From a bacterium (GTDB taxonomy: Bacteria > Sumerlaeota > Sumerlaeia > SLMS01 > JAHLLQ01): a stretch of DNA of 64,000 nucleotides. The stretch spans positions 1 through 64,000 of the forward strand of contig JAHLLQ010000003.1 in assembly GCA_020444065.1 (NCBI GenBank), given 5' to 3'. The notes below the pieces were generated by a model. The model had not been told where the DNA came from. It was given only the letters and a program-made list of their open reading frames with translations, and made no database searches. Shown here in pieces: positions 4,806 to 40,634 of this stretch. Positions within the stretch are counted from its first letter, which is position 1. Each line of letters starts with the position of its first letter. The position numbers and the translations under genes were made by a program.

Positions 4806-6836
4806 GTGATTACCTCACGACCTTTCCGGATCCTCTCTTGCGGAACGGCGATGCTGTTCCTCCTGGCGATGAATTGCGTCTTTGCCCAGGCGGTGACGAG
4901 CACGTACACGAGCCGGGCGGATTTTCTTGCAGAGATTCCGTACGACACGGCGGAAGTCGATTTCGAGTTTATCTCTGCCGGATCGACCTTCCCCTCTAAT
5001 GTCTCGATCGGTACTGTGTTCTTTTCGCACAACGCTGGCGGATTGGATTTTCAGGTCAGCGATGCCTACGACCAGACGACACCCGACGGCGCAAACGCGT
5101 TGGGGCTCAGCACGGAGGATGAGTTGTTCTGGTCGGGCGACGAGGTTGTGATGACGACTGGCTATCCGGTCGCGGCCTTTGGCATCAGTATCATTGCCAG
5201 TCCCGGCGATGTGCAGCCGGGCGATTTGACGTTGTTTGTCGAGCCGGATGTCTTCATTGCGAACAGCGCAACTCCCGACGCGTTTCTTCCCGACGGCGGC
5301 GAGGTGTATTTCTTCGGCCTGATCATCCATGGTGCGACGGAACTGGATCGTTTCTCTACGGCGATTCTCTCGACCGACGATCCCGAGGGGCTCGGGTACT
5401 TTGTCTTCAGTATCGATGATGTGATCCACGAAGCAGACCCCGCCATTCTTATCAACAACTGCGGCCTTGTGGCAGGGCAGAGCATTCGCCTGGTCAGCGA
5501 CAATCCGAGCGGTGCCATCGGCCTGCCCGCCGGAACGTGCGGCTATGTCGCTTGCACCAACGTGAGTGCTGAACCTGGAGTGCTCGTTTCCTTCGAGAAC
5601 TGGCAGCATGGCATCGATGCGATGGTGGATTGCACGGGACCGATTGCGTTTCCGCCCAGATCGCTTTGGTGGGTGAGTTGTTCGGATGTTGTTGCCGACG
5701 TATCATGTCCCGGCCCGCCGCCGGTTCGTTCTTACGATGATTTTGACGATTTCTTCGCCGACCACGGGGCCGGCTCCTCCAGCATCGACTTCGAATCCGC
5801 CGTCGCGGGGTCGACGTATCCGCCACCGGTCACCTTGGGTGGCGTGACGTTGTCGCATTCTGCTGCAGGGGCGGACTTCCTCGTGACCGACGATTTCTCG
5901 CAAACGACGGCGGGAGGAAGCAACTCGGCTGGACTCGATACGGCGGACCGCGCCTTTCTTTCGGGTGATAGTGTGACCATCGACTTCTGCATCCCGGTAA
6001 GGTCTTTTGGCCTGTTTGTGATTGGCAGTCCCGGGGACGTGCAAGCGGGCGACTTCACATTGACCGTTGGCCCAGGGACCTCCGTCAGCAACGGTGCAAC
6101 ACCCAGCGCGATTCTGCCCGACGGCGGTGAGGCGTACTTCCTCGGCCTGGGCGTTGAATCGTCGATCCCCAGCGTTCTCTCTGCGACCTTGATCAGCAAT
6201 GACACCGCGGGGCAGGGCTTCTACGTTTTCAACATTGACGATCTGATTTTCCCGACGATCGAAAACAATCCGCCAACGAATATCTTCTTGAGCAATAACA
6301 CGATCGAGGAGAATAAGCGGAATCTCTGGAATGTTGGGTGGTTTAGTGTCTTGGATGATGATCCGGTCGATTCGCACGTGCTGGAGTTGATCGATGTCGA
6401 TCCATCGCCGAGCAGCTTCTCGTTCCTGCTGACGGGAAATCTGCTTCGTACGACGAGGACCCTGGATTACGAAGACATTCCGAGCTATAAGCTATTGATT
6501 CGCTGCACCGATAACTGCGGCGCTGCGATCCAGAAGGTCTTCACGATCGAGGTTATCGATCTGCCGCCTTGTACTGTGCCCGGCGCGCGTGTCGAGACCA
6601 TTGCGCCCGATCCTTCCGGCGCATCCGCTTTGCCGATTGGCAGTGCCGGCACGGTGATCTGCACGCATCCTACTGACGAGACAGTGCTACTCATCTCGTT
6701 CGATGGATGGGACCTCGGCACGAACGACACCGGCGATTGCGACGGCACACCGTTAGGTTTCGCCGCTGACTCGCTGTGGTGGGTGGAGTGCAGCGAAGTC
6801 CAAGTTACCGACCAGGATCACTGGCTGACGTTCTGA
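4806..6836 (+). CDS. Exported duplicated beta-rich protein with Cys-containing modules and a cadherin-like module
   Basis: GTG 4806 is preferred over GTG 4791 because the G-rich stretch GGGGGGA sits seven bases before it. It follows the previous gene by 20 bases, probably on one transcript. A signal peptide (AMLFLLAMNCVFAQA) precedes two copies of a beta-rich module of about 180 residues. Shared landmarks are AGSTFP/AGSTYP, SPGDVQ.GD.TL.V, LPDGGE.YF.GL and GYFVFSIDD / GFYVFNIDD. Each copy is followed by a module with conserved Cys and Trp residues (CGYVACTNVS..LWWVSCSDV and GTVICTHPT..LWWVECSEV). A cadherin-like domain (NIFLSNNTIEENK ... LDYEDIPSYKL) lies between. The end is DQDHWLTF. Function unknown. 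Confidence 0.75.
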   Translation: MITSRPFRILSCGTAMLFLLAMNCVFAQAVTSTYTSRADFLAEIPYDTAEVDFEFISAGSTFPSNVSIGTVFFSHNAGGLDFQVSDAYDQTTPDGANALGLSTEDELFWSGDEVVMTTGYPVAAFGISIIASPGDVQPGDLTLFVEPDVFIANSATPDAFLPDGGEVYFFGLIIHGATELDRFSTAILSTDDPEGLGYFVFSIDDVIHEADPAILINNCGLVAGQSIRLVSDNPSGAIGLPAGTCGYVACTNVSAEPGVLVSFENWQHGIDAMVDCTGPIAFPPRSLWWVSCSDVVADVSCPGPPPVRSYDDFDDFFADHGAGSSSIDFESAVAGSTYPPPVTLGGVTLSHSAAGADFLVTDDFSQTTAGGSNSAGLDTADRAFLSGDSVTIDFCIPVRSFGLFVIGSPGDVQAGDFTLTVGPGTSVSNGATPSAILPDGGEAYFLGLGVESSIPSVLSATLISNDTAGQGFYVFNIDDLIFPTIENNPPTNIFLSNNTIEENKRNLWNVGWFSVLDDDPVDSHVLELIDVDPSPSSFSFLLTGNLLRTTRTLDYEDIPSYKLLIRCTDNCGAAIQKVFTIEVIDLPPCTVPGARVETIAPDPSGASALPIGSAGTVICTHPTDETVLLISFDGWDLGTNDTGDCDGTPLGFAADSLWWVECSEVQVTDQDHWLTF

Positions 6837-6860: not shown

Positions 6861-9800
6861 TCACGGATTCCGCGTCTTCACAATGTCCGCGACGTCGAGG
6901 ACGCCGTCGCCGTTGATGTCGTTGCCCGCGAGTTCGTTTTCTCCCATCAACAGGCTGGCGGCGATGGATTCCTGCGCGGGGCGCTGGAGGACTTCGGCGC
7001 TCAGTGAGATGGAGAATTCGGGCCGGTTGTAGTCGTTGGTCGAGAATGTGAGATCACCAGACAACGTGGCGGCGTTTTGCGTTTCGAGTTGGAAGCGAAG
7101 AGTCTGGGAATGGCTCGGCGCGATCGGATCGACGGGCAACTGCGTGAGTGTGAATCCGCTGGGGACGGAGGCGTTGGAGATGACGAGAGGCGCGTCGCCG
7201 GTGTTCTCGATCAGCAGTTCTGCCTCGACGGGAGTTGCGCCAACGAAGTGACTGCCAAGATCGACCAAGGAGACGCCGCTTTCGAGGGCGTTGCCCTGGT
7301 ATCTCGCAGCTATCTCGGCATCGAGGACTTGTGCGGTGAAGGTGAGTTCGAATGGCGAGTCGTTCACATCGTTGCTGGTGATCTGAAGTGTGCCTTCAAA
7401 GGTGCCAGGGAGCGACGTAGCGAGATCCACGGTGAAGCTCTCGGACTCGCCGGTGGGGATCGTCATTGGGGTCAGAGAGATTGTGTAGCTGTTGGTGATA
7501 TCGGCGGTGGCGATGATGAGATCGCTATTGCCGATGCTCTCGATAAGAAGCGTCGCGGAGAGCGGCGTGCCCAGATAGTTTGCCTGGCCGAGATCAATCG
7601 GACCCGCGTCGTTGGCGAGGGGAGTTCCGCCCTGGCTGACCTGTATTGCGGGCGCCGTGATTGTCGCGGTGACGGTGAATGTGAATGTGCTCTCGTCGAA
7701 ATCGTTCGAGTGAATTTCCACTGTGCCGGAGAAGTCTCCCGCGGTGGTTGTTGGTAGCGCAACTGTGAGCGTCGCAGAGCTGCCTGCCGTGACGGCACTG
7801 GGGGCGCCTTCGATCAGGAAGCCACCCGTTGCCGTGACGTCTGCGATCTGAAGGTCGGCCGCGCCGACGTTTCGGATTGCGAATTCACTGCGCAGCGATT
7901 CTGCGCCTGCATCCGTTGAGCCAAGATCGAATGGACCCGATCCGCTTGCGATGGGTGTCACGCCATTCAGGACGGTGATCTCGGGAGTTAGGACGGGGAT
8001 CGGTGAGGGCTCCAGGAAGTCGGTCGGATCTTCGTTGTCGATGTATCGGGCTCGCACATTGTCGGTCTGGTTCAGTTCCAGGATTCCATTGCCCGGCACT
8101 GCCGTTCCGAACTGCATCGGCAGCCCGGTGGAATTGATGAATGTGCCGGTTTTGGTGCCGGTTTCGTTGACGACGATGATTTCCTGATCGGCGGAGTTGC
8201 TTGTGCTGATTGTAACGGTGCTTGTATCGCGGAGGGATCCGCTCGTGTTTTCATCGCTGTCGATCAGCTTCACAAAGACATCAGAGCCTAAAGCGATTTC
8301 CGAGATGAGATTGCCGTTGGCGTCCGACAATCCAAGCCCGATGGCCGGGACGCGCATGACTCCCGATCCTTCCTCAATCAGAGAGCCGTAGTTGTTGAAG
8401 CCATTCGGATTTCCGAGGCTAACTTGCGTGCCATCGGAGATCTTGAAAGCCGAGCCCGACGCGATGAAGCTGGTGGAAGTCGGACCTCCGGTCGCGGAGC
8501 CTTCCACGAGCGTGACTCGAACGGACTCTCTGAACTCCATATAGCCGGCAAAGGTGAATGTGCCTTTCGCGTCGATGCTCGAATTGTTGGTGGAGGAGAA
8601 TTCGAGAGTTGAGAAATCTACGGGTTGCGGACCAAAATCGCAGACGGCATCGCGTGTGACAATCTGGGCTAAGTTCTTCATTACGAACGTCCCCGTTGTG
8701 ACCTGCAAATCACCGCGGACAGTCCACCACCCGGTGTCGTCGATGAATGCGCCGCCATTCTGCGTGAAATTGCCTCGGACTTCTGGTCGGAGGAATTTCT
8801 CCGGGAGGATGGAGCCGGTGTAGTCTGCATCGATTGTGAAATTGTTGAAGACTGGCGAACCGTTCAGCACGCAATCCTTGGAGCTGGTCGCATTGAAGAT
8901 GACGTCGTCCGTTGCGCCCGGCACGCCATCGGGATCCCAGTTCGCGGCTTCGTCCCAGTTCTCCGTCGCACCGCCGCCATCCCACACAAGGGGCGGCACG
9001 ATGATGCTTTCGTCGAGTGTGTCGGAAGGATCTTCGTTGTCCTGGTAGTGCACGGTGAGTTCTTCGTCGCCGGATTTCTGAAGGATGCCGTCTCCAGGCA
9101 CTGCCGCACCGGTTGCGGTCATCAGCGGCGTTGCGTTTCGGAAAAAACTCGAACGCACATCGGTTTCATTCAGAACAAGGACTTCCTCGTCGCCGGTGGT
9201 GGCGCTGCGGACGGTGACCTCGGTCGTTTCGGCCACAGCGCCATTCGTGTTTTCATCGAAGTCATCGAGAGTGATGTAGACTTCGCCTCCATCGGGAACA
9301 GATCGCACGGCATTGCCGTCGGCGTCAGTGAAGCCAAGGCTCTTGGCGGGATGCAGCATGACACCGGGGGGATTCTCAATGACAGTTCCATAGTTTCGGA
9401 ACTCGCGAATATCGGACAAATCGACTTGGGCCGACGGCTCGATAGTCACCGTGTTGCCGTTGATGATGGTGAAGTCGGAGCGGCCGCCAATAAAGTCGAG
9501 GCTTCCATCGAAGAGATGAATGTCAGCCGATGTTCCGGATGCGACGAAGGAACCATAGACGTTATCGAGGACAAGATTGCCGCGGATATTGACAGTGACG
9601 GGAGTTCTGCTGAAAACGCTGAAGCCCGAAATGTTGAGGCCGGATGGGCGAACGTCAAACTCCTGGATTCCAGCGCCCTGGATAGTGAAAGCGCCTGGCG
9701 TTGCGGTGCCGCCGGAGAATCGGAAATCGCCGTAGAGTTCCTGGCCGACAGTGCCCCATTCGATTGCTCCGCCGGACTGCTGGAAGTCGCCATAGATCTG

Positions 9801-32137: not shown

Positions 32138-32182
32138 TGCAGTCGTTGGGCAACAACACGAAACTCTGAGAGAGTGAATACT

Positions 32183-32683
32183 ATGTCGGAACCATTTCTC
32201 GCTGAAATCAAATTGGTCGGCTTCAACTTCCCCCCCCGCGGTTGGGCGACGTGCGATGGTCAGATTCTGCCCATCAATCAGAACCAGTCTCTCTACTCGC
32301 TGCTAGGGACGACATACGGAGGCGACGGGCGCACGTCGTTTGGCCTCCCAGATCTGCGGGGCAGGACTCCGGTCCATGTTGGGAACGGGCATAATCTGGG
32401 AAGCAAGAGTGGTGAGGAGACACACACGCTCTCTGCCAGCGAAATGCCGCAGCATAGCCACGCGCTGAATGCGGTTTCCGAACAGGGGACGCAGACTGCA
32501 GCTCTGAATAACAACCTCGCCGAGAGCAGCCTCCCGATCTATGGGACCATGTCGAATTCAGCTTCCATGGGTAGCGGAACCGTTGCGAACGCCGGGGGAG
32601 GCCAAGCGCACAACAACATGCAGCCTTATCTGGCGTTGAATTTTTGTATCGCCTTGCAGGGGCTCTTCCCATCTCGGAACTGA
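32183..32683 (+). CDS. Tail-collar (MdpB-like) protein 1
   Basis: 166 residues; ATG 32183 chosen (GTG 32174 possible). Full phage tail collar fold without a signal peptide: MSEPFLAEIKLVGFNF, GWATCDGQ.LPI, TTYGGDGRTSFGLPDLRGR, MPQHSHAL and HNNMQPYLALNFCIALQG.FPSR. It is first of three tandem paralogues. The family is called microcystin-dependent protein (MdpB-like) in some bacteria and often occurs in triplets, as here. The role is unknown; a self-assembling surface or phage-tail-derived structure is a common view. Confidence 0.9.
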   Translation: MSEPFLAEIKLVGFNFPPRGWATCDGQILPINQNQSLYSLLGTTYGGDGRTSFGLPDLRGRTPVHVGNGHNLGSKSGEETHTLSASEMPQHSHALNAVSEQGTQTAALNNNLAESSLPIYGTMSNSASMGSGTVANAGGGQAHNNMQPYLALNFCIALQGLFPSRN

Positions 32684-32718
32684 GGCGCTGACAATGAAAA
32701 GCAGGAAAGGAACGAACA

Positions 32719-33234
32719 ATGAGTGAACCTTTCATCGGCGAAATCCGTATGTTTGCCGGGAACTTCGCGCCGCGAAGTTGGGCCTTCTGTGACGGCCAAT
32801 TGCTGGCTGTTTCGCAGAACGACGCGCTCTTCAGCTTGTTTGGGACGATCTATGGCGGCGACGGAAGGACGACGTTTGGACTTCCCGACCTGCGCGGGCG
32901 CGTTCCGATACATGCCGGGACAGGCCCCGGTTTATCGCCTCGGAATATTGGGAGCAAAGGTGGCCAGGAGAAGGTCACCCTGACGGTGAATCAGCTTCCT
33001 TCGCATGGCCATTCGCTGCAGGCAACCAGTGAAGCATCAACCCAGCGCCAACCGGCGGGCCAGGCAGTGGCCAGTGCGACAGGACAGGTTTACAACGAGC
33101 TGTTGGATCCGCACACCATGAACAGCGCCTCCATTGCAAATGCTGGCGGCAGCCAGACTCATACGAACCTGATGCCGTGCCTTTGTGTGAACTTCATCGT
33201 TGCCCTCGCTGGTATTTACCCAAGCCGCACCTAA
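32719..33234 (+). CDS. Tail-collar (MdpB-like) protein 2
   Basis: 171 residues; start fixed by AGGAAAGGA upstream. Same landmarks as its neighbours: GEIRMFAGNFAPRSWAFCDGQ, IYGGDGRTTFGLPDLRGR, GSKGGQEKVTLTVNQLPSHGHS and NLMPCLCVNFIVALAGIYPSR. 35 bases separate it from the first copy. It lies closer to the third copy than to the first. Confidence 0.92.
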   Translation: MSEPFIGEIRMFAGNFAPRSWAFCDGQLLAVSQNDALFSLFGTIYGGDGRTTFGLPDLRGRVPIHAGTGPGLSPRNIGSKGGQEKVTLTVNQLPSHGHSLQATSEASTQRQPAGQAVASATGQVYNELLDPHTMNSASIANAGGSQTHTNLMPCLCVNFIVALAGIYPSRT

Positions 33235-33255
33235 AGTTTCCACGGAGCAAAACTT

Positions 33256-33768
33256 ATGACTGAACCATTCATTGCAGAAATCCGGATCTTTGCCGGGAAC
33301 TTCGCACCCCGCAGTTGGGCATTCTGCGACGGCCAATTGCTGCCAATCTCTCAGAATACTGCGCTCTTTTCTCTGGTGGGAACGACCTATGGCGGAGACG
33401 GTCGCACAACGGTTGGACTACCGGATCTTCAAGGTCGCGCTCCCATGCATCCCGGGCGAGGCCCCGGGCTGACCGAGCGGCGATTGGGAGAGAAGACCGG
33501 CGTTGAGACCGTGACTTTGAGCGATGCGCAGATGCCCTCACACAATCACAGTCTGGTGGGCACACGCGAGCTTGGAGAAGATCTGAATCCGGCGGGCAAT
33601 TACTTCGCCCGTGGCACCGCGATGTATGAGGCGACCGGCACGACGGTGGACATGAATGCCCAGAGCCTGCCGTCCAACGGGGGCAGCCAGGCGCACAACA
33701 ATCTGCAGCCCTATCTTGCAATCAATTTCATCATTGCGCTCCAGGGTCTTTATCCTTCGCGCGGCTGA
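33256..33768 (+). CDS. Tail-collar (MdpB-like) protein 3
   Basis: 170 residues, 21 bases after the second copy. Landmarks AEIRIFAGNFAPRSWAFCDGQ, TTYGGDGRTTVGLPDLQGR, LSDAQMPSHNHS and NNLQPYLAINFIIALQGLYPSR. The three paralogues, the Tat-signal protein and the GNAT gene that follow probably form one operon (gaps of 21-36 bases, then a 4-base overlap). Confidence 0.92.
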   Translation: MTEPFIAEIRIFAGNFAPRSWAFCDGQLLPISQNTALFSLVGTTYGGDGRTTVGLPDLQGRAPMHPGRGPGLTERRLGEKTGVETVTLSDAQMPSHNHSLVGTRELGEDLNPAGNYFARGTAMYEATGTTVDMNAQSLPSNGGSQAHNNLQPYLAINFIIALQGLYPSRG

Positions 33769-38230: not shown

Positions 38231-38293
38231 GTTGCTGCAGGGCATTGAGTGCGTTTCTGAGGAGAACTGCGGGGGAAGAAGTGGTGGCCAACG

Positions 38294-38690
38294 CGTACTC
38301 GAACTCGTACTCAGCGAAGCGGTACTCGTACTCGATTTTGAGGCTTGGGATTTCGAGTGCGAGTACGTGTACGAGTAGGAGTACGAGGGGAGATGCTCTC
38401 GCGCAGAGGGGCAAAGACGCAGAGGAAGCGAGTATGAGGTGGCTTGGCCACTTGGCCGCCGGAGCCTCAGGCGAAGGCGGGTCCCTGGCTAAGAGTAGGC
38501 CTGTCGACTGAGGAAAGGATGGGGGATGCGATATTGGGAACCTTGCGGGGAGTTCTGAGGCCTCTGAGGCTTGGGCAAGATGCCCAAGTCACCTCGAGGG
38601 GAGAGGCGATCGCGTACTCGATCTCGCACTTAGCGGAGCGGCATTCGTACTCGGCTTTGGTCGATTTTGATGAAGAGCACGAGCACGAAT
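38294..38690. repeat. Hairpin cassette L beside the reverse transcriptase gene
   Basis: Ordered motifs: (A1, 38294-38385) a long hairpin with outer arms CGTACTCGAACTCGTAC and GTACGAGTAGGAGTACG, an 11-base bulge, inner arms and a 17-base loop; (M, 38401-38427) a CGCAGAGGGGCAAAGACGCAGAGG motif split as GCGCAGAGGGGC and AAAGACGCAGAGG; (T, 38433-38450) TATGAGGTGGCTTGGCCA; (G, 38568-38589) an 8-bp hairpin CTTGGGCA/TGCCCAAG; (B1, from 38614) a second hairpin, related to A1 on the left but shortened on the right. The RT stop codon comes six bases after B1. The same order recurs at 40322-40626. Confidence 0.82.
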
Positions 38691-38695
38691 AGCGT

Positions 38696-40018
38696 TCATT
38701 CCGGAGGGGGAGCGGCTGGGAGATCGGGGGGAGGTGGCGCGGGGGGCGCGCCGATGAGTTGCCGCCATTGCGAGCGGAGTTTTGCGCCTTTGCCGGGGTG
38801 GAAGCGTTCGACCCAGGCGATGCGACCGCCGAGGTGGTCGGCGAAGTTTTGGATTCGATCGCGATTCTGACTTTCCAATGATCCGGCTTTGGACGCGTTG
38901 TGGAGGATGGCGCAGAGGCGATCGATCTCCGCGCGCCCGACGGACAGGCGGTCGTTGACGTTCAGGCCAACGAGGTTCTGCTGGCGGCCGCGGCGCATGA
39001 ATCGGCGTTTGGCCTTCTTGGGATGGAAGCGTTCGCTTTTCAGGATTGTCTCTACCAACGGAACGAAGCGGTTCAGTCCGCGTTTGAAGTCTTCGCCGCC
39101 GGAGAACGCGAGGTCGTCGGCGTAGCGCGTGTAGGTTGCGCCGAATTTCTTTGCGAGTCCCGCCAGCCGGCAATCGAGTCGATAGCAGAGGGCGTTTGCG
39201 AGTGCCGGCGATGTGGGAGCGCCTTGCGGGAGGACACGTGCAAGGGACGCGAGAGACGCCGTTGTGCAGAGGAGCGACAGGATGCGGGCGACGCTGTGCG
39301 GATAGCCGAGCCACATGAAGAACGAGCAGACGCGGCGATATCGAATGCTCGGGAAGAAGTCGGCGATGTCGTGCGCGACGATGATGGGCTTTCCGATGTG
39401 CGGGCGCGCGTGATCGGTGGCGTCGCGCCCGCGGACGAAGCCTTTCGCGGCTTCGTGGACGGGGACCTTGTCGAGGATCTCGTGGAGGATGCGGCGCTGG
39501 GCGGCTTTGAGGCGAGGCTTCGGGATGAAAAGGAAGCGTTGCCCGCCACCGCGTTTTGGGATCGTGCGCATGGTGTAGTTGCGCAGTTTGCCCGGGCCGT
39601 TGCGGAGGCCCTGCATGCGGCCGGTATCGCAAAGGTGAACGAGTTCGCGGAAGTCGCGCAGCTGAAGGAACGCGACAATATCGTCGGGTTTCTCGAGCAC
39701 GGGCAGGCGAAGGGAGCGTTGGCGGTCGATGCTCTGCGGATGCAGTTGGCGCATCTTATCGTCGCGCTCGCGGTAGGACGATGTCGGTGAGTTGCCGAGG
39801 ACGATCGGTGCACGGGATCCAAGGATCTTGCCTCTGCTCCGGCCGCCGACTGAAACACGAAGGCCATCCGTGCCAAGTTCGAGGCGTGCTCCGCCCGGGC
39901 CTCCGCGTCGGGCCTGATTCACAATGTTCACAACGATGATTAGGACGACTACGATCGCAAAGACAGCGACCAGGAGTCCGATGATCGCAACGGCGCCGAT
40001 TTGCAGGGCGGGCATCAT
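38696..40018 (-). CDS. Membrane-anchored retron-like reverse transcriptase
   Basis: 440 residues from the MM pair at 40018/40015; an upstream in-frame ATG at 40087 lies inside a hairpin. Residues 8-33 are one strong membrane helix, then a glycine-rich and charged segment to about 95. RT landmarks: RFLFIPKPRLKAAQRRILHEIL, the catalytic Asp217 in AHDIADFFPSI, LPQGAPTSP at 263-271 (RT motif with QG), and YTRYADD with Asp301 and Asp302. LVGLNVN at 349-355, ILHN and GRIAWVERFHPGKGAKLRSQW follow; the latter part resembles retron thumb regions. HARPH at 203-207 replaces the retron NAxxH, and LVG replaces VTG. No maturase or endonuclease domain. The tail is Pro-rich. An N-terminal membrane helix is unusual for a reverse transcriptase. 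Confidence 0.92.
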   Translation of the reverse strand: MMPALQIGAVAIIGLLVAVFAIVVVLIIVVNIVNQARRGGPGGARLELGTDGLRVSVGGRSRGKILGSRAPIVLGNSPTSSYRERDDKMRQLHPQSIDRQRSLRLPVLEKPDDIVAFLQLRDFRELVHLCDTGRMQGLRNGPGKLRNYTMRTIPKRGGGQRFLFIPKPRLKAAQRRILHEILDKVPVHEAAKGFVRGRDATDHARPHIGKPIIVAHDIADFFPSIRYRRVCSFFMWLGYPHSVARILSLLCTTASLASLARVLPQGAPTSPALANALCYRLDCRLAGLAKKFGATYTRYADDLAFSGGEDFKRGLNRFVPLVETILKSERFHPKKAKRRFMRRGRQQNLVGLNVNDRLSVGRAEIDRLCAILHNASKAGSLESQNRDRIQNFADHLGGRIAWVERFHPGKGAKLRSQWRQLIGAPPAPPPPDLPAAPPPE

Positions 40019-40076
40019 GGGGGCGGGTGTCCTGGGAAGAGCGGCACGGCGGCCTGGCTTGCAACGCCCGCTGTGA

Positions 40077-40113
40077 GGAATCCACATCCGGGCTCGCCCC
40101 TGATGTGGATTCC
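40077..40113. repeat. Perfect inverted repeat in the RT leader
   Basis: 12-bp perfect stem GGAATCCACATC/GATGTGGATTCC, loop of 13 bases, 59 bases upstream of the RT start. A smaller palindrome, TCGGGGT-A-ACCCCGA, follows at 40146-40160. Candidate structured leader or non-coding RNA for the RT. Confidence 0.6.
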
Positions 40114-40280
40114 TTATTCGTGAGATGCCGGAAGTGGAGCTCGCTCGGGGTAACCCCGAACAGTCGCGAGTTTCCTCGTGACCTCCAAGCCAGACTGCCG
40201 TGCCTTGTTTCTCTCGTGTTCAGTTGGGGGCAGGAGAGGGAAAGGGGCAATGGAATTCGGTGGAGAGGAGAGAGCAGATC

Positions 40281-40626
40281 GCGCAGAGGGGCAAAGACGC
40301 AGAGGAAGGGAGGGCGCAATCCGTACTCGAACTCGTACTCAGCGGAGCGGAACTCGTACTCGGTTTTGAGCTTTGGGATTTCGAGTGTGAGTACGTGTAC
40401 GAGTAGGAGTACGAGGTGGAGAGGGGTTCGCGCTGAGGCGCAAAGACGCAGAGGAAAAACCTATGAGGTGGCTTGGCCATCTCTGGCCGATAGCTGGTCG
40501 ATCGCCTGAGCCACAGGGGCTTGGGCAAGATGGCCAAGTTACCCCAGAATACACTCGTGGTGATGCGTATGCGACACTCGCACTCGGTTTTGGTCGATTT
40601 CGATTACGATGACGAGCACGAGCACG
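40281..40626. repeat. Hairpin cassette R beside the reverse transcriptase gene
   Basis: Begins with an extra copy of motif M (40281-40307), then hairpin A2 (40322-40413, outer arms identical to A1), M again (40431-40456), T (40462-40479), G (40518-40539, one mismatch in its stem) and B2 (40565-40626). The order A-M-T-G-B is the same as in cassette L. The spacing from T to G is about 80 bases shorter. The substitutions in A2 leave pairs or wobble pairs, apart from one new mismatch. Confidence 0.82.
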
Positions 40627-40634
40627 GGGAAACT

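Follow-up and report, generated by a model that had tools for sequence, protein, structure and literature searches.

Retrons are usually described as the association of a reverse transcriptase (RT) and a non-coding RNA (ncRNA) with a toxic effector, the latter being either separate or fused. In retron Ec86 (Eco1), the ncRNA follows the order a1-msr-msd-a2, the RT is not known to carry a membrane helix and the effector is a separate one. Retron ncRNAs are defined by the a1/a2 repeats and by priming from an adjacent guanosine (PMC8989520). A link to the membrane has been described for retron Eco6 (Ec48), of which an accessory protein carries two transmembrane (TM) helices (PMC8989520). Our own literature search, carried out on titles and abstracts, retrieved no paper recognisable as describing membrane-anchored or planctomycete retrons.

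Here, we report on a retron found in a bacterial DNA stretch of 64,000 nucleotides, to which we refer as the window. Its ncRNA has the same order as that of Ec86, and both this locus and Eco6 would be linked to the membrane (by prediction for the window), except that the membrane part belongs to a separate accessory protein in Eco6 and to the RT itself in the window. We consider it likely that the window locus is a retron with an RT tethered at the membrane by its N-terminal helix, i.e., a single-protein system of which the output may act there. The corresponding features are collected in Table 1.

Table 1. Features of the retron locus and of its flanking repeats (positions in the window).
Feature	Positions	Strand	Basis
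Retron reverse transcriptase CDS	38696-40018	minus	440 aa; ATG 40018; retron by profile, sequence and fold
N-terminal TM helix of RT, residues 5-37	39908-40006	minus	Kyte-Doolittle 3.65; AF2 helix
Probably flexible linker, residues about 38-81	39776-39907	minus	pLDDT <50 over much of it
RVT_1 catalytic core with Asp217, Asp301, Asp302	38960-39562	minus	Pfam match; invariant in family alignment
Retron ncRNA (a1-msr-msd-a2)	40043-40204	minus	fold; covariance model R1 match 40038-40210, E 1.4e-6
a1 arm of inverted repeat	40186-40204	minus	fold
msr hairpin 1	40162-40183	minus	fold; counterparts in G001, G002, G009
msr hairpin 2, GTTCGGGG-TTA-CCCCGAGC	40143-40161	minus	fold; most conserved element
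msd hairpin, presumed msDNA template	40076-40114	minus	16/17 arm positions complementary; msd position in relatives
a2 arm of inverted repeat	40043-40061	minus	fold
Left repeat cassette; dispersed repeat outside retron	38289-38690		cassette comparison, genome search
Right repeat cassette; dispersed repeat outside retron	40281-40626		cassette comparison, genome search

The Reverse Transcriptase and Its Class

The open frame of the RT extends from 40087 to 38696 (minus strand), with Met1 placed at 40018 and another ATG at 40015; residues are numbered from Met1, which is a predicted start codon. It is the only such RT in the whole 5.2-Mb genome, and a Pfam search of the protein returned no domain apart from RVT_1. 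The catalytic residues Asp217, Asp301 and Asp302, reported as intact in a first-pass annotation of this DNA, are indeed unchanged across the 49-51 homologues of our family alignment. Re-reading the sequence also gives the two retron motifs as annotated, HARPH and LVG, whereas homologues across the family mostly read TNAxPH and VTG as their consensus, and close relatives have HAGPH, HAAVH or NASVH for the former and LTG or VTG for the latter. Against the consensus, HARPH and LVG read as single substitutions in the window protein, and since two family motifs are affected, activity is not assured.

The top-ranked specific profile, PDB-sequence and fold matches of the window RT are all retron RTs, in agreement with the retron-like nature first proposed for it. 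For the window RT as well as for its planctomycete-type relatives, the best PADLOC profiles are RT_other and RT_outgroup (PDLC02949, PDLC03740), with 367 and 348 bits for the window RT (vs. 316 bits for RT_XIII) and matches starting at profile position 135 of 481 for RT_other and 67 of 407 for RT_outgroup. Both the profile match and the AF2 model indicate that the N-terminal domain of these profiles is missing from the window RT: members fitting the profiles have an N-terminal domain of ~100 aa, in place of which RTs of the window clade carry a membrane segment plus linker. Profiles for group II introns, Abi and DRT systems remained below their curated cut-offs (TIGR04416: 45 bits for a cut-off of 300; Drt2: 30 for 390; Drt3a: 21 for 200). 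Likewise, a fold search with the AF2 model (mean pLDDT 87) returned retron RTs first, with the RTs of group II introns, DRT and DGR ranking lower; the best match was Ec86 (7v9x; E 2e-23; TM-score 0.82 by target), which has the RT fold in common with the window protein at 26% identity. Within PADLOC, the window locus falls among the RT_other/RT_outgroup retrons and does not constitute a novel type of RT system, the clade names used here resting on the PADLOC models.

Retron type XIII, of which the profile (RT_XIII) comes third for the window RT, forms a tree clade of its own (100/97) and differs in its N-terminal region. Two type XIII-like RTs have peculiar C-termini: the one on a plasmid of Methylobacterium bullatum (L044, ~7200-7287, plus strand) ends in predicted TM helices, perhaps a separate membrane route, and the one from Polyangia (L033, ending near 6074, plus strand) has a polybasic and aromatic tail, PPKKKKKKWKLW, that could bind membranes. 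The viral contigs searched yielded no relative, and all the relatives found in the phages and plasmids searched lie below 60% identity.

A Canonical Retron RNA Upstream of the Reverse Transcriptase

The first-pass annotation, made without database searches, knew of no described RT system with this combination of features. It had overlooked a retron ncRNA that sits between the right cassette and the start of the RT, on the same strand as the latter. With a canonical retron RNA at 40204-40043 (minus strand), the locus is a retron rather than a novel system lacking a recognised template. The same layout precedes the RT in three relatives (G001, G002 and G009), albeit with different stem sequences, and the same architecture is found upstream of the RT in most planctomycete-type relatives and of RTs belonging to other groups. 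In the window and in its relatives, Gs stand directly behind a1 as candidate priming bases.

An Rfam search over this region of the window gave no match. We trained a covariance model (R1) on 23 planctomycete-type upstream RNAs, all from outside the window's phylum. In this model, 27 of the 33 pairs are changed on both sides, and pairing holds in 92.1% of cells (vs. 74.6% after shuffling and 38-45% after sliding). When searched against the window, R1 returned a single match (40210-40038, minus strand; E 1.4e-6), which is also the sole significant one in the whole genome, even though its score of 29.5 bits is modest compared to the roughly 70-159 bits of most planctomycete-type members. Within the RT_other/RT_outgroup group, the model further matches loci of Burkholderia (L042) and Rhizobacter (L032); it recovers the ncRNA of G002 as well, while the match in G001 is confined to the hairpin-2 core and the ncRNA of G009 was not found by the R1 search.

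Predicted Membrane Segments at the N-Terminus of Related Reverse Transcriptases

The single strong N-terminal membrane helix seen at first pass is borne out by hydrophobicity (Kyte-Doolittle mean of 3.65 in a 19-residue window) and by the AF2 model, in which one helix is followed by a low-confidence linker and then by the RT domain. In the RTs with a TM helix, the window one included, basic residues come right behind the helix, which would place the RT domain in the cytoplasm by the positive-inside rule.

Almost every member of one large clade has, at the RT start behind a2, an amphipathic helix that is short and hydrophobic (consensus MGLFD[FW]L.RLFG). With the RT start set as the first ATG after a2, a strict version of the motif occurs in 32 of the 41 clade RTs, in none of the 17 RTs whose N-terminal domain is a different one and in none of 201 neighbouring ORFs, these counts being descriptive rather than a test, as the motif was defined after viewing the sequences. 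The nine clade RTs without the strict motif have variants of it or carry it at a later ATG. The hydrophobicity comparison made alongside these counts is independent of the motif, although the clade assignment rests partly on reading N-termini. A joint cut on hydrophobicity and moment, for which four N-termini were re-set to a later ATG, is passed by 32/41 clade RTs vs. 0/17 and 2/201 for the two other sets. It is probable that the amphipathic helix binds the membrane, but it could engage in a protein-protein contact instead.

The TM helix of the window RT is shared by some of its relatives: it replaces the amphipathic helix in G002, G009, L079 and L137, while the RT of G001 has an amphipathic start and no TM helix. 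With five TM sequences counted in the tree, the window RT among them and L137 labelled by hand, four changes are required to explain the TM state (bootstrap range 4-4), and three are imposed by starred branches. The closest relatives of the window RT are G001 (amphipathic) and G002 (TM), in a trio with 100/100 support. The trio groups with RTs having the other N-terminal domain, with modest support (96/83) in a tree of uneven deep support, which leaves more than one ancestral state plausible at this point. A TM helix that repeatedly (~4 times) replaces an amphipathic one points to selection for membrane attachment. From these sequences, we infer that membrane attachment of the RT is maintained by selection and that its physical form is interchangeable.

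Two further groups of N-termini were noted. The shorter retron RTs of a second clade (L058, L061 and L106-L111), which occurs in 7 of the 68 genomes from a different class and in G019, also start with MGLFKKLF-like helices leading almost straight onto the RT, and several members of this clade are accompanied by another ncRNA hairpin (e.g., GGCGTTTCGCC). Moreover, genome G174 encodes a second, distant retron RT (L073) with two hydrophobic N-terminal segments.

Proposed Mechanism and Genomic Context

In the neighbourhood of the RT at related loci, we found no recurrent dedicated effector or accessory gene, nor any fused effector domain, and the window neighbours (a HYR-domain protein and a BatA/VWA protein) belong to families without a known retron link. 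As no separate effector gene was found, our working mechanism is that of a single-protein retron. With priming from the msr part, the RT would reverse-transcribe the msd part of the ncRNA to yield msDNA, while the N-terminal helix and the probably flexible linker would hold it at the cytoplasmic side of the membrane. The complex of RT, ncRNA and msDNA would thereby be located at the membrane, where the output may act, for instance as a sensor of envelope stress or of phage DNA entering the cell. That the output acts there is a guess, drawn from the tether. As far as sequence goes, a sensor, a membrane-active toxin and a resident role would look alike.

Several other observations concern the neighbourhoods. 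In planctomycete-type loci, a multi-TM core protein without Pfam match often follows the RT (L114-L126); considered as a candidate effector, the multi-TM gene downstream of the RT was rejected, being a core gene of one family, f150, that often lies far from the RT. In ten of these loci (L114-L126), an M50 site-2-type peptidase gene stands divergent beside the retron. An example of such a locus with both neighbours is L123 (5272-5977, minus strand, and 7979-8753, plus strand). Elsewhere in the window (32174-33768, plus strand), three tandem paralogues of ~170 aa resemble, by eye, phage tail-collar or microcystin-dependent-protein-like proteins.

Instead of defence, the retron might serve a resident, housekeeping function at the membrane. 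In favour of this stands its distribution in f150, where the RT occurs in 90 of roughly 100 sampled genomes (a hand count over an estimated denominator), the ncRNA is recovered by R1 in 114 of 170 and synteny with core genes recurs. PF07596 reaches about 50-100 copies per f150 genome vs. none in 14 control genomes, an abundance that presumably ties f150 to planctomycetes; the data point to Planctomycetia, and Pirellulaceae is our guess. In the window's phylum, however, the RT is patchy (6 of 40 genomes, including the window's own), and the genomic location of the window retron differs from those in G001 and G002, so we regard a housekeeping role as rather improbable.

The N-terminal segment might otherwise be the toxic effector itself, held inactive by the RT-ncRNA-msDNA complex until triggered and then damaging or depolarising the membrane. 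Such a role would fit the lack of a separate effector gene in our searches and the position of short hydrophobic amphipathic helices at the extreme N-terminus, and an accessory protein with two TM helices is known for Eco6 (PMC8989520). Yet, the interchange of TM and amphipathic helices fits a tether at least equally well, and near-universality in f150 is unlike most toxic defence genes, which makes a toxic segment unlikely.

At face value, the helix could also be a mis-called start or a chance hydrophobic stretch in front of an ordinary, cytoplasmic retron RT, since a later start codon would delete it. This is highly improbable: the helix comes directly after the ncRNA, independent relatives carry TM or amphipathic segments at the same place and AF2 models a confident helix.

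Flanking Repeat Cassettes

The retron is flanked by two cassettes with the same motif order, of which the likeness, pointed out in the first-pass annotation, is real: they are 92% identical across their 100-nt A part, and the remaining parts are alike in order and sequence, far above chance. The RT stop does fall six bases from the left cassette. However, a DNA search of the 5.2-Mb genome with the right cassette returned 56 matches over several contigs, some of them in tandem arrays, for one RT. Among the 40 relatives examined, no cassette was found in the RT-bearing G001, G002 and G009, while many short matches occur in G012 and G031, neither of which is matched by the RT model; some are likewise present in G019, the RT of which is more distant.

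The idea that the cassettes are RNA templates or the ends of an RT-carrying mobile element, which their flanking position and common motif order had inspired, is hardly credible in view of these 56 matches for one RT, of their distribution among relatives and of a proper retron ncRNA located elsewhere and recovered by R1. Given their scatter across the genome and their absence from the closest RT-bearing relatives, the cassettes are dispersed repeats that flank the RT by happenstance. The link between RT and cassettes was to be attributed to chance if homologues lacked the helix and if cassettes occurred throughout the genome without any RT; the latter is what we observed, whereas homologues do keep a TM or amphipathic helix.

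Regarding the repeats themselves, cassette pieces concentrate on four contigs of the window genome G000 (C3, C4, C7 and C10), mostly in plus orientation, a strand bias that may follow replication direction. Tandem arrays have units of about 165 bp (L010) and 320 bp (L003).

Significance for Planctomycete Retrons

The retron itself is of a known kind; its unusual part would be the membrane tether on the RT, a novelty that is uncertain with respect to other work. Beyond the window, the comparison delineates a large clade that combines an RT and a conserved ncRNA, for which no effector gene was found, with a membrane-targeting N-terminal segment in two switched forms. A wider proposal, which we advance only tentatively and consider somewhat doubtful, is that of a widespread clade of single-protein retrons working at the membrane, in which the RT's amphipathic or TM helix replaces the effector, be it as a tether bringing msDNA sensing to the site where phages enter or as a membrane-damaging output, and which would be near-core and vertically inherited in one planctomycete family. 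For further exploration, R1 provides a usable covariance model for an ncRNA that went unrecognised in the Rfam search of the region. Our results lead to a concrete prediction, namely that of membrane-bound retron complexes, and cultured planctomycetes would be the place to learn what an effector-less retron does.
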